From positions 416 to 50,178 of the forward strand of contig PLYC01000023.1 of assembly GCA_003151625.1 (NCBI GenBank): 49,763 nucleotides of DNA, read 5' to 3'. The notes under the pieces were generated by a model that was given only the letters and a program-made list of their open reading frames with translations, ran no database searches and was not told where the DNA came from. Numbering within the stretch: the first letter of the stretch is position 1; each line of letters starts with the position of its first letter. Made by a program: the position numbers and the translations under genes. This document shows, in pieces, positions 9,821 through 49,763 of this stretch. This DNA comes from Candidatus Doudnabacteria bacterium. GTDB taxonomy: Bacteria; Patescibacteriota; Doudnabacteria; UBA920.

Positions 9821-10559
9821 ATTTGTTCTCTGATACTGCCGTTTGATAATACATTGACACCTGTTCTCCTGTCGGTAATAAAACCATAAACTTAATAATG
9901 ATTACTACCGTTGGCTGAATTTTGGGCACCGAGCCGCCGGCGGGCTTGGTATAAGGATCTTTTTGCGGACGGACTATAAACATTAAGTTATCAATACGCG
10001 CATTGGGCGGATTTAATTTTTGAATTGCGGTTATATTATCCTTTTCCATAGCTAAAGTGCTGCCCCCGTTATTAGTGGAATCAAAATGGCTCGGAATGCT
10101 CCCTATGGTATCTACATAAATGACCCCATCGGCTTTTGCGTAATAAAAACACTCTTTAACGTTATCGGTATTAATAATCCCCAGCCAATTGCTTTTTGTA
10201 TTATAAATCGGGCTATCGCCTACCGAGACAGTACTACCGGGAGGCAAAGGAGGGCGACATGGGGCTTGGGGAGAATCATTGTTAATGCGAGGACCGTATT
10301 TCACATTACCGCTGTCCACATAATAATCGATTTGGCCGTTACGGACTTCCTTGACTAAAAATTCCACAAAATCGCGTGAATCCTGGGTAGCCTGCCTTAA
10401 AGCCTCCCCGCGTCGGTTGATTTTTAAAACATAATTAAACAAAGACAGTAAAGCCACTGCCACAATGGCAAAAATTACCGTGGCTACCATTATTTCCATC
10501 AATGTAAACCCAGCACCACTTTTCACTGATTGAATTTGTTTAACAGATTTAATTGGCAT
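9801..10559 (-). CDS. PilW/PulJ-like minor pseudopilin
   Basis: 252 aa. The class III prepilin leader ends in KSGAG, and cleavage is expected before FTLMEIMVATVIFAIVAVAL, with Glu5 present. The extended helix continues LFNYVLKINRRGEALRQATQ, then a soluble region of beta type with two Cys (APCRPP, NVKECFYY). Length and helix suit PilW/PulJ minor pilins that prime filament assembly. It overlaps the following PilX-like gene by 20 nt. The prepilin cleavage site itself is encoded by one arm of an inverted repeat whose other arm lies in the 5' untranslated region. Confidence 0.85.
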   Translation of the reverse strand: MPIKSVKQIQSVKSGAGFTLMEIMVATVIFAIVAVALLSLFNYVLKINRRGEALRQATQDSRDFVEFLVKEVRNGQIDYYVDSGNVKYGPRINNDSPQAPCRPPLPPGSTVSVGDSPIYNTKSNWLGIINTDNVKECFYYAKADGVIYVDTIGSIPSHFDSTNNGGSTLAMEKDNITAIQKLNPPNARIDNLMFIVRPQKDPYTKPAGGSVPKIQPTVVIIIKFMVLLPTGEQVSMYYQTAVSENKYDIPNQ

Positions 10560-24498: not shown

Positions 24499-24573
24499 GG
24501 GTGTGTAGCTCAGTGGTAGAGCACGTCACTGATAATGACGGGGTCGCAGGTTCGATCCCTGCCACACCCACCA
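24499..24573 (+). tRNA. tRNA-Ile(GAT)
   Basis: Full cloverleaf: acceptor GGGTGTG/CACACCC, D arm GCTC/GAGC, anticodon stem CGTCA/TGACG with loop CTGATAA (anticodon GAT), T arm GCAGG/CCTGC with TTCGATC loop, encoded CCA. This is one of the two tRNAs classically found between 16S and 23S, but here it is on the opposite strand to both rRNAs. Confidence 0.97.
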
Positions 24574-25058: not shown

Positions 25059-25134
25059 GGGCCGTTAGCTCACTTGGTAGAGCGCCACATTTGCAATGTG
25101 GAGGCAACCGGTTCGAATCCGGTACGGTCCACCA
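25059..25134 (+). tRNA. tRNA-Ala(TGC)
   Basis: Acceptor GGGCCGT/ACGGTCC, D arm GCTC/GAGC, anticodon stem CCACA/TGTGG with loop TTTGCAA (anticodon TGC), T arm ACCGG/CCGGT with TTCGAAT loop, encoded CCA. With tRNA-Ile(GAT) it forms the classical spacer tRNA pair. Confidence 0.97.
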
Positions 25135-35977: not shown

Positions 35978-36340
35978 CTAGTAGCGGTCGTTTCTGCCAC
36001 CGCCGTAGCCGCCGCTATTGCCGCCACCACCGTAACCACCACCACTGCCGCCGCGTCCGCCGCGGTCGCCAAAGCTTCTTTTGGGGCGATCTTCCAACGG
36101 TCTGGCTTCCTTGACTACCAAGGTCCGGCCGTTGTAATCGGAGTTATTTAAAGCCGCTGTTGCAGCGTCTGCTTCAGCGTCGTTTTCGAATTCAACGAAT
36201 CCAAAACCTCTGCTTCGACCAGTCATTTTGTCGGTTATCACGGTCGCGCTGGCGACTGTGCCGTGCTGGCTGAATAATTGCTGAAGGTCATCGGAAGTGG
36301 TAGCCCAGGGGATACCGCCGACGAAAAGTTTCTTAGCCAT
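35978..36340 (-). CDS. RRM-type glycine-rich RNA-binding protein
   Basis: 120 aa from the ATG at 36340 (a TTG eight codons upstream is less likely). One RRM at 3-80: RNP2 KLFVGGIPW, RNP1 SRGFGFVEF. It is followed by an Arg/Gly-rich tail (GGRGGSGGGYGGGGNSGGYG). It resembles the cyanobacterial Rbp proteins, which bind single-stranded RNA and are cold-regulated. It has a strong promoter and a leader of about 340 nt with a long hairpin ending 20 nt before the start codon and no SD, suggesting post-transcriptional control, perhaps autoregulation (inference). Confidence 0.93.
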   Translation of the reverse strand: MAKKLFVGGIPWATTSDDLQQLFSQHGTVASATVITDKMTGRSRGFGFVEFENDAEADAATAALNNSDYNGRTLVVKEARPLEDRPKRSFGDRGGRGGSGGGYGGGGNSGGYGGGRNDRY

Positions 36341-36360
36341 TTTATTATTAGAATCAGTCT

Positions 36361-36504
36361 TCAAAATTCTTTTTTGTCTGCAATTGCATAATTTCGTCCG
36401 CTGATCGCAAAAAATTTTTCCGCTTAGCCTTTTTGGCTAAACATCAAAATTTATTTACGCCCATCGGCCTAAGATTCTGCAATTTCGACTAAAAAATAAT
36501 TCTT
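36361..36504 (-). ncRNA. long structured leader element of the RRM gene (hairpin copy A)
   Basis: On the minus strand the segment folds into one long, nearly continuous stem: TTTTTTAGTC with GACAAAAAAG, AATTGCAGAAT with ATTATGCAATT, and CCGATGGGCG with TGCGATCAGCGG. The apex is TTTAGCC-AAAAA-GGCTAA flanked by TTTTGATG and GCGGAAAAA. A homologous hairpin lies at 38166-38331 with the same apex and compensatory stem changes (AATTGCA/TGCAATT here, AATTCCAG/CTGGAATT there). Confidence 0.6.
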
Positions 36505-36683
36505 CAGCTAGATTCTGGCTTTCTATTGAAGAGCTCACCTTACACTCTTACTGACTATTTAAATGGAACTTTAAATGCTACTCTACAGCGCTCTTAAAAA
36601 GAAAGCCTTGCGAGGTCTTCTGTCTATTTTCATAGACCGAAGTCCCGCCTGAGGCGGGAACACTTAAACTTAAGATGATAAAA

Positions 36684-36714
36684 CTATTATACACTAAATA
36701 TCCTATAATAGCAA
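36684..36714 (-). promoter_or_regulatory. promoter of the RRM gene
   Basis: Minus strand TTGCTA, 17-nt spacer ending GTG, then TATAAT. It lies just past the stop codon of the ZIP gene and predicts a 5' leader of about 340 nt. Confidence 0.7.
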
Positions 36715-36727
36715 GGCTCTATTTAAA

Positions 36728-37453
36728 TTAAACAAACCTGGTAATCGCAAATGTTAAAACCACGCCGAATAAAGTCAGACCAATGAGTTTTAAGGAACTG
36801 TGCTTGCTGTGGGCTTCGGGGAGAATATCGCTGACTCCAATATATAACAAAAAGCCGGCAAAGAAGCCCAAATACCAAACCAAAAAATGTGGAGAAACAC
36901 GGAATAACAAAGTAGACAAAGCGCCTAAAACCGGCGCCACGGAATCCACGAGCAAGAATATTTTGGACTTTTTGGTACTGTTGTTGTTGGTTAGCATCAA
37001 GGTAATGGTATTCATGCCGTCCGTAAAATCGTGGGATATTACAGCTATAGCCACTAAAAGCCCGACCGCGGGATTTACCTGAAAGCCCAAACCAATGCCC
37101 ACTCCGTCCATAAAACTGTGTCCGGCCAAAGCCAAAGCGGAAAGAACGCCCACATGCGGGTGTTTGTGGTCGGCGTAATCCGTTTCGTGCGCATGGTGAA
37201 CCACGATAACTTTTTCCAAAATATGAAACAGCATAAAGCCAATGACCAAGGCCACCATTGGCTCTATGGGTTTGTAACCCCCGGCATTAACCTGGGAGAT
37301 TATTTCCGGAAAAATATCAAACGCCACCACACCCAATAAAACTCCTGCAGTAAAGCCCATTATTAAATGCAGTTTATTTTTATACCTTACCGCAAATAAC
37401 CCGCCAAACAGCGTAGAAAAAAATGTGGCAATGGAAAGAATTACGGCTTCCAT
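36728..37453 (-). CDS. ZIP family metal transporter
   Basis: 241 aa, about eight membrane helices. Metal-site motifs of the ZIP family are visible: HSFMDGVGIGLGF in helix 4 and SHDFTDGMNTITL in helix 5, and a His-rich cytoplasmic loop (VVHHAHETDYADHKHPHVG) before helix 4. It probably imports Zn or another divalent metal. The stop lies just upstream of the RRM promoter. Confidence 0.92.
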   Translation of the reverse strand: MEAVILSIATFFSTLFGGLFAVRYKNKLHLIMGFTAGVLLGVVAFDIFPEIISQVNAGGYKPIEPMVALVIGFMLFHILEKVIVVHHAHETDYADHKHPHVGVLSALALAGHSFMDGVGIGLGFQVNPAVGLLVAIAVISHDFTDGMNTITLMLTNNNSTKKSKIFLLVDSVAPVLGALSTLLFRVSPHFLVWYLGFFAGFLLYIGVSDILPEAHSKHSSLKLIGLTLFGVVLTFAITRFV

Positions 37454-37465
37454 AATATTATTTAT

Positions 37466-37502
37466 TAAAACCCCGATCCCGATGACCGGGACCGGGGGTT
37501 TT
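37466..37502. terminator. GC-rich terminator hairpin
   Basis: AACCCCGATCCCG...CGGGACCGGGGGTT with T flank, between the 37513 gene and the ZIP gene. Works in either direction. Confidence 0.75.
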
Positions 37503-37512
37503 TTAGATTTCC

Positions 37513-38145
37513 TTAAACTGTTTTCGAAGAGTCTCCGGTAAGCTTTACATCCAAAGTAAGCTCCTCCACAACGCGCGATTTTAAAGATTTATTGGTAAAA
37601 TACAACAGTACAATAAATGTCAGAACCAAGGCAATTAATCCGGCCATCGCCGATAAAAATTCGGTTTGCTTTTCACGAATTTCGATTTCTTTTAACGATC
37701 GGCCGACAACCAAAAAACCCGAACTGCCGCCGGAATAAGGAACCACGACTACGGCTTCGCGCACCCCGTTTGCCGGCTGCCAGGTTTGGCGCCACTCGCC
37801 ATGAGCCCGGACATAATCAAACACCGAAGTTGGAAAAGATGGATTTTTGCCGTCGAGCAAAGCCGAAGAGCCAATTAACGTGCTGGTAGCATTGTAGATC
37901 ATTACAAAAGGCGAAAGTGTTCCCGCAATTTCCGTGGTCCCCTGTGCCGGAACTATTTGACCCGGTTGAGCCTGACCCTGGGCAATTGCGGTAGCTAAAT
38001 CTTCGGCAATTTGAATTTGCGGATCATTTGCCGATTGGCGGTAAGATTGCTGAACCGTGGCATATGCCAACCCCGAAAAAATTATTATTATTATTGCAAA
38101 CGGGAGCCAGGCGTTGAACGTTGCGCACAAAACTTTTTTTGTCAT
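37513..38145 (-). CDS. membrane protein with extracytoplasmic sensor-like domain
   Basis: 210 aa. Two membrane helices (LPFAIIIIIFSGLAYATVQQ at about 14-33 and FLSAMAGLIALVLTFIVLLY near 165-184) enclose a PAS/Cache-like exterior domain with IAEDLATAIAQG, FVMIYNATSTLIGSSALL and SGFLVVGRSLKEIEIRE. The architecture is that of a sensor kinase input module but no HAMP or kinase follows; only a short cytoplasmic tail. Function unknown. Confidence 0.65.
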   Translation of the reverse strand: MTKKVLCATFNAWLPFAIIIIIFSGLAYATVQQSYRQSANDPQIQIAEDLATAIAQGQAQPGQIVPAQGTTEIAGTLSPFVMIYNATSTLIGSSALLDGKNPSFPTSVFDYVRAHGEWRQTWQPANGVREAVVVVPYSGGSSGFLVVGRSLKEIEIREKQTEFLSAMAGLIALVLTFIVLLYFTNKSLKSRVVEELTLDVKLTGDSSKTV

Positions 38146-38165
38146 ATTTAAAGGATTAATACTTA

Positions 38166-38331
38166 TTAGAAGATAACTTAAAAATAATTTGTAGGCGAAA
38201 TTCCAGAATTTTGAGCGGATTGGCTCTTAATAAATTTTGACGTTTAGCCAGAGCTAAGCGGAAAAATTTTTAAGACCAAGACGCCAAAATGCTGGAATTG
38301 CAGCCCAAAGGATTTTTAAGATAGCTTCTAG
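38166..38331 (+). ncRNA. long structured hairpin, copy B
   Basis: A 166-nt nearly continuous hairpin: TAGAAGATAACTTAAAAAT (38167-38185) with ATTTTTAAGATAGCTTCTA (38312-38330); AATTCCAGAATTTTG with CAAAATGCTGGAATT; TTGGCTCTTAATAAATTTT with AAAATTTTTAAGACCAA. The apex is TTTAGC-CAGA-GCTAAGCGG. It is homologous to the RRM leader hairpin (36361-36504). The apex motif here reads on the plus strand, while flanking genes are on the minus strand, so it is either an ncRNA or a mobile palindromic element. Confidence 0.5.
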
Positions 38332-38346
38332 TTGCTTGTCGTTTAA

Positions 38347-38352
38347 TTATAC
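38347..38352 (-). promoter_or_regulatory. -10 element upstream of hairpin B
   Basis: Minus strand GTGTATAAT (TATAAT at 38347-38352) without a clear -35. Transcription from it would pass through hairpin B into the 37513-38145 gene. Confidence 0.45.
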
Positions 38353-38387
38353 ACCAAAAATAAAAAATTGCCACTGATTTTAGTATT

Positions 38388-49563: not shown

Positions 49564-49763
49564 GAAAGGAGGTGATCCATCGACAGCTTCCGCTACCGAT
49601 GCCTTGTTACGACTTAGCCCCAGTTATGAGCTTCGGCTTAGGCCACCTTACGGTGAACTTTAGCCGCTTCCCACTTCCATGGCTTGACGGGCGGTGTGTA
49701 CAAAACCTGAGAACGTATTCACCGTAACGAGGCTGATTTACGGTTACTAGCGATTCCGGCTTC
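49564..49763 (-). rRNA. 16S rRNA, 3' end (partial)
   Basis: The reverse complement contains TTGTACACACCGCCCGTCA, AAGTCGTAACAAGG and the terminal GGATCACCTCCTTT with an intact anti-Shine-Dalgarno. The gene runs off the right edge. The bases before TTGTACAC (CTCAGGT instead of the usual CCCGGGC) show a divergent lineage. Confidence 0.96.

Follow-up and report, generated by a model that had tools for sequence, protein, structure and literature searches.

Bacterial MITEs such as Correia/NEMIS, ERIC, RUP and the Rickettsia palindromic elements (RPE) are about 100-200 bp long, carry terminal inverted repeats, are flanked by target duplications, lie mainly between genes and form a long stem-loop with A-G mispairs; insertion of RPE in RNase P RNA has been described (PMC2229807). 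REPINs are dispersed extragenic palindromes of conserved length with compensatory stem changes (PMC3116915). The hairpins described here share all of these features with the two groups. They differ from the MITEs of PMC2229807 in lineage and sequence, in combining one core with duplications of at least two lengths, in keeping their length and loop layout across families of a phylum, in their strand-specific loops, and in that we found no partner transposase. They differ from REPINs in their greater length (about 165 bp) and their terminal repeats with 3- or 5-bp duplications; in addition, we saw no REP doublet organisation and no correlation with the presence of Y1 genes. Integron attC sites, with R boxes at the stem base, cassette arrays and an integrase, would also differ in anatomy, as the copies studied here are single, dispersed and flanked by target duplications. 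We consider it very likely that the hairpins at this locus are two copies of a non-autonomous MITE, and the family is probably selected to fold on one strand.

The window, that is, the whole 49,763-nt stretch of DNA that we analyzed, is positions 416-50178 of contig C29 of the host genome G000, a 1.5-Mb MAG resembling Candidatus Doudnabacteria. Copy A occupies positions 36350-36516 on the minus strand (167 bp), with bounds set by its terminal inverted repeats AGAATC/GATTCT, and copy B occupies positions 38168-38329, approximately, on the plus strand (162 bp), with terminal repeats TAGAAG/CTTCTA; with its flanking TA/TTA, copy B extends from 38166 to 38331. The core of copy A, with conserved G-A loops and apex (36375-36490, minus strand), and that of copy B (38193-38306, plus strand) matched our covariance model with scores of 109 and 120.9 bits, respectively. 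The predicted RNA fold of copy A was -48.0 kcal/mol versus -29.1 for dinucleotide-preserving shuffles (z -5.8), and that of copy B was -72.7 versus -30.4 kcal/mol (z -12.5); none of 200 shuffles folded as well as either real copy. The two copies matched each other with an E value of about 1e-17. Both contain the apex GTTTAGCC..GGCTAAGCGGAAAAA and the motif TAAATTTTGA, and their stems, AATTGCA/TGCAATT in copy A and AATTCCAG/CTGGAATT in copy B, differ in sequence but retain pairing. An earlier note on this DNA had reported two homologous long hairpins with just these shared parts and compensatory changes, and all of this proved to be real; copy A is slightly wider than it had given. The note had recognised no known RNA family in them, and our search of Rfam agreed, yielding no match for either hairpin at the gathering score and only unrelated sub-threshold matches at permissive thresholds. 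Elsewhere in the window, the 3' end of a 16S rRNA gene (from 49565; 49565-49763) and the 5' end of a 23S rRNA gene (to 227; 1-227) lie 49 kb apart on the minus strand, and tRNA-Ile(GAT) at 24499 and tRNA-Ala(TGC) at 25059 lie on the strand opposite to these rRNA ends; this layout reflects either unlinked rRNA genes or an assembly join.

Copy A lies in sense orientation between the native leader and the start codon of a gene for an RRM-domain RNA-binding protein (MAKKLFVGG..., with a Gly/Arg-rich tail; 35978-36340, minus strand; Pfam RRM_1, E 1e-22). The protein is closest to those of Candidatus Doudnabacteria, and its gene is a neighbor of copy A, outside the element. The inverted repeat stops 9 nt before the start codon, not 20 nt as previously noted. 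The native leader (36517-36680, minus strand) is conserved in orthologues within Doudnabacteria, as judged from an alignment of 11 leaders (TATCATCTT..., GTAAGAGTGTAAGGTGAGCTCTT, GAAAGCC), and the host leader keeps the motif GTAAGAGTGTAAGGTGAGCTCTT...GAAAGCC upstream of copy A, separate from the element. An apparent long-range pairing, AAGGCTTTC/GAAAGCC, was seen within this native leader, and a sigma-70-like promoter, TTGCTA-17-TATAAT, is predicted upstream of it (36686-36714, minus strand). In the orthologous leaders GAAAGCC is followed by a few bases and ATGGC, while in the window GAAAGCC is followed by copy A and then AATAATAAAATGGC. As the hairpin is missing from these orthologous leaders, whose RRM proteins are up to 97% identical, we conclude that copy A is an insertion and that the orthologues represent the empty site. 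Copy B lies between a PAP2 gene and a gene for a 210-aa membrane protein, antisense to both. A second predicted sigma-70-like promoter, GTGGCA-17-TATAAT (38346-38374, minus strand), would put the minus strand of copy B into the leader of the 210-aa gene.

These two copies belong to a larger family. BLAST with copy A matched nine places in its own genome, which holds about 10 copies overall rather than the two previously noted, and matched 13 of 60 relatives, the own genome being excluded as separate evidence. With a covariance model built from 17 cores, carriers amounted to 12 of the 22 genomes of the family and 14 of the 49 of the order; at the level of the phylum there were 21 carriers among 333 genomes in all, those members found in other families being much more diverged. 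The match counts in the genome tables register a palindrome on each of its strands, and distinct sites are therefore fewer than matches. About 86 copies from the own and related genomes were fetched and examined; two pairs have a flank in common, so the sites are slightly fewer than the copies. Only one of the 86 overlaps a called ORF, in the first residues of a frame of 823 aa with a likely signal peptide that begins later, an apparent 5' over-extension, and about 13% of the surrounding DNA is without an ORF of at least 70 aa. Several contigs of G003 begin inside or near copies, as expected of recent near-identical repeats. In G013 one copy lies, in the transcribed orientation, inside the sole RNase P RNA gene detected in that genome (L207, about 2469-2631, G013:C8), at a place where the RNase P RNA of relatives has a short hairpin. 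A search of viral contigs for the apex pattern gave no match. Several copies of G009 (L179-L182, L211) have a common insert near the 3' arm (GGCTCTGCCAGTTGCCAGCTTAACCCC) and apparently form a subfamily. Isolated exact GGGACTGTTGCCGAATG ends with no second arm nearby were seen at L225 1763 (G000:C32) and L226 1608 (G001:C60), and are possibly solo ends or remnants of larger elements.

The whole element, about 160-167 bp in length and without coding capacity, is one long imperfect palindrome with nearly perfect terminal inverted repeats of up to about 20 bp (end sequences GGGnCTGTTGCCGAATG and GAGGTGGTCTAAAAACTC). Copies with GGGnCTG ends were flanked by an exact 5-bp target duplication in 13 of 23 cases (shuffle mean 0.9, maximum 4), and those with GAGGTGG ends by an exact 3-bp duplication in 9 of 11 (shuffle mean 1.1, maximum 5). 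A third, mixed end class of 41 copies showed no significant target duplication; copies A and B both belong to this class, so that the duplications characterize two end classes of the family and not the one that holds the copies in the window. G003 contains 73-bp derivatives which keep both ends, have lost the apex and are inserted at other sites, and of the eight short derivatives seen in G003 and G016, five are flanked by an exact 5-bp duplication. As these apex-less derivatives have duplications of their own, the ends suffice for movement and the apex is not needed. The family has several of the properties by which bacterial MITEs are recognized: it is short (<200 bp), non-coding, dispersed and multi-copy, with terminal inverted repeats, target duplication in two end classes, and an empty site at the RRM leader.

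The earlier note had called for a test of covariation, and the outcome bears out its view that the structure is probably a selected one. In an alignment of 31 full-length, non-redundant copies, pairing holds in 91.8% of cells and 45 of 68 pairs show changes on both sides, a value reached by none of 500 shuffles; double-change cells numbered 305 versus 94 in shuffles, and slid partners gave far lower values. Some mismatches are kept: tandem G-A at GCG-GA-TTGG/CCAA-GA-CGC, tandem G-A near the apex in TTTT-GA/GGA-AAAA, and a GA/GCA loop near the base. A U-G pair is kept in 28 of the 31 copies. Together, the G-A loops and the U-G pair favor one strand, the plus strand with GTTTAGCC...GGCTAAGCGG. 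In a strand-neutral alignment of the arms, G-T outnumbered A-C by 191 to 51 and purine-purine outnumbered pyrimidine-pyrimidine by 516 to 79, counts that are not independent since the copies are related. The plus strand was the better folder in 59 of 60 copies and in all 25 of a set including 14 elements from more distant genomes, most of them 160-167 nt in length; in this set we compared the phylum-wide layout visually and through fold energies. When counted by parsimony as evolutionary events, there were 138 changes from one Watson-Crick (WC) pair to another, 45 from WC to GU versus 28 from WC to AC (p 0.06), and 48 versus 21 events for purine mismatches; the strand argument is weaker in these terms, since many copies repeat the same few fixed features. 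The plus-strand mismatch loops (alignment columns 20, 32, 53 and 74) are spaced by about 11-12, 21 and 21 nt, which is close to whole turns of the helix and could place them on one face of it.

Which single-stranded molecule would be folded was approached through the orientation of the copies. If the fold acted in host transcripts, with the hairpin processed, for example by RNase III, or altering mRNA stability, and were selected for that reason, the sense orientation should be enriched. Instead, copies between tandem genes were antisense in 35 cases and sense in 18 (p 0.027). Orientation followed GC skew rather than coding direction: the plus strand had negative GC skew, that is, was the C-rich strand, in 59 of 82 flanks, and in 20-kb windows plus-strand skew was negative in 38 of 52 (p 0.001) and in 18 of 21 where skew was strong, whereas coding direction gave 29 of 52 in the same windows. 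This test pools several copies per contig, was one of more than one such measure looked at, and assumes that GC skew marks the direction of replication; read with these provisos, the bias hints at a link to replication and argues that host mRNA is not where the fold is selected. On the other side are the conserved U-G pair, the sense orientation of the G013 copy within its RNase P RNA gene, an insertion of the kind made by RPE, and the precedents of NEMIS and ERIC, for which such a role has been proposed (PMC2229807). We regard a role in host transcripts as rather unlikely, although it is the best placed of the alternatives. Given that the copies are oriented with GC skew and not with the direction of the genes, our guess is that the selected molecule is single-stranded DNA in replication or transposition rather than host mRNA.

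Quasi-palindrome template switching, in which changes are copied from one arm to the other, is the main alternative source of covariation, and would make the complementarity of the arms a product of mutation in a plain MITE rather than of selection. It would yield double changes such as the 138 WC-to-WC events in any long palindrome, but it should also erase mismatches, and many copies have kept the tandem G-A loops and the U-G pair; nor does it offer a reason why one strand should fold better. We therefore think it unlikely that template switching accounts for the arms. A plain MITE-like repeat was also what the earlier note would have read from further copies scattered with no covariation and no link to RRM genes; the copies are indeed scattered and lack such a link, but they do covary.

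For a non-autonomous MITE selected to fold on one strand, the ends would be acted on by a transposase supplied in trans, most likely of the DDE type, and the two duplication lengths imply different enzymes. The ends, which begin with GAGnCTG/GGGnCTG, may resemble those of IS5-family transposons; we take this as a lead, the likeness concerning the starts of the ends. When six carriers, all incomplete MAGs, were searched with DDE_Tnp_1 and DDE_Tnp_1_2, one DDE_Tnp_1 gene of the IS5 type, in G003, and no DDE_Tnp_1_2 gene were detected. This G003 transposase has weakly similar ends (TAGACYTGTT), but no relatives of it were found in the other rich carriers, including the richest, G009 and G016, and its absence from these two led us to reject it as the general mobiliser. 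A 2.3-kb pair of ends in G016, a candidate parent transposon that came from following paired and unpaired end patterns, was likewise rejected, as what lies between the ends is a RecA-like gene and a second gene of host type, not a transposase. Within these incomplete MAGs and the few transposase families tested, no matching autonomous element was found.

Movement as single-stranded DNA by a Y1 (RAYT) transposase would make the family REPIN-like. In its favor, REPINs too are palindromes whose stems carry compensatory changes (PMC3116915), most genomes tested have Y1 genes, in G009 an element and a Y1 gene are about 0.7 kb apart, and selection on a folded strand fits a single-stranded intermediate. 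Y1 genes are, however, alike in carriers and non-carriers, being equally or more abundant in the element-free G002 and G005, so that we rejected Y1/RAYT as the mobiliser. To our knowledge, target duplications are not expected from Y1 enzymes, and the clear 3- and 5-bp duplications thus disfavor membership among REPINs; we judge a REPIN-like origin improbable. The G009 Y1-type gene (L278 10907-11527, G009:C3; element at about 9934-10180) adjoins, by eye, an RNase H-like ORF, and this was the only such adjacency seen.

That copy A is a cis-regulatory RNA which the RRM protein binds to control its own expression, as the earlier note had proposed, and that copy B is another of its targets, is in our judgment very improbable: the sense orientation of copy A in the RRM leader, its position 9 nt from the start codon and its covarying stem would suit such a role, but orthologous leaders are without the hairpin, no RRM gene lies within about 2.5 kb of any other fetched copy of the family, copy B runs antisense to the genes on either side, and between tandem genes the antisense orientation is the commoner. 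The covariance-model search that the note had suggested brought further copies in the own and related genomes but no link to RRM genes, as an element lies near only 2 of 80 RRM loci, both in distant Falkowbacteria; in one it is upstream and antisense, in the other downstream, and these differing placements led us to treat both as chance insertions. If the RRM gene is autoregulated, the native leader is more likely than copy A to mediate this. The upstream flanks of the own-genome copies are essentially unrelated and therefore hold no shared external promoter, and we rejected on this ground the suggestion that copy B is a free-standing ncRNA gene.

We propose, then, that a MITE of this family would have inserted as copy A between the RRM leader and the start codon and as copy B between two other genes, and that the folded strand with GTTTAGCC...GGCTAAGCGG would be under selection to fold, as a single strand, at some stage in the life of the element. 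The element fits among the known bacterial MITEs that form long RNA-like stem-loops; its phylum-wide variant may be new, in that a search of an open-access library found no paper joining Candidate Phyla Radiation and MITEs, or Doudnabacteria and inverted repeats, an absence that is no proof of novelty. More tentatively, and with some doubt, it is possible that Patescibacteria harbor phylum-wide mobile hairpins in which a folded strand of fixed length (about 160-167 nt) with regular purine loops is the selected entity, recognised as single-stranded DNA or RNA, and able to use terminal repeats that vary (3- or 5-bp duplications) while the core stays the same. Covariation and a position in a leader are insufficient to call a riboregulator, because a transposable hairpin would look no different. 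Small mobile elements have hardly been described in Patescibacteria, and with a strongly covarying alignment and a clear strand preference, the question why many MITEs of bacteria form long hairpins becomes testable, the candidate answers being an RNA effect, a DNA intermediate or an artefact of mutation.
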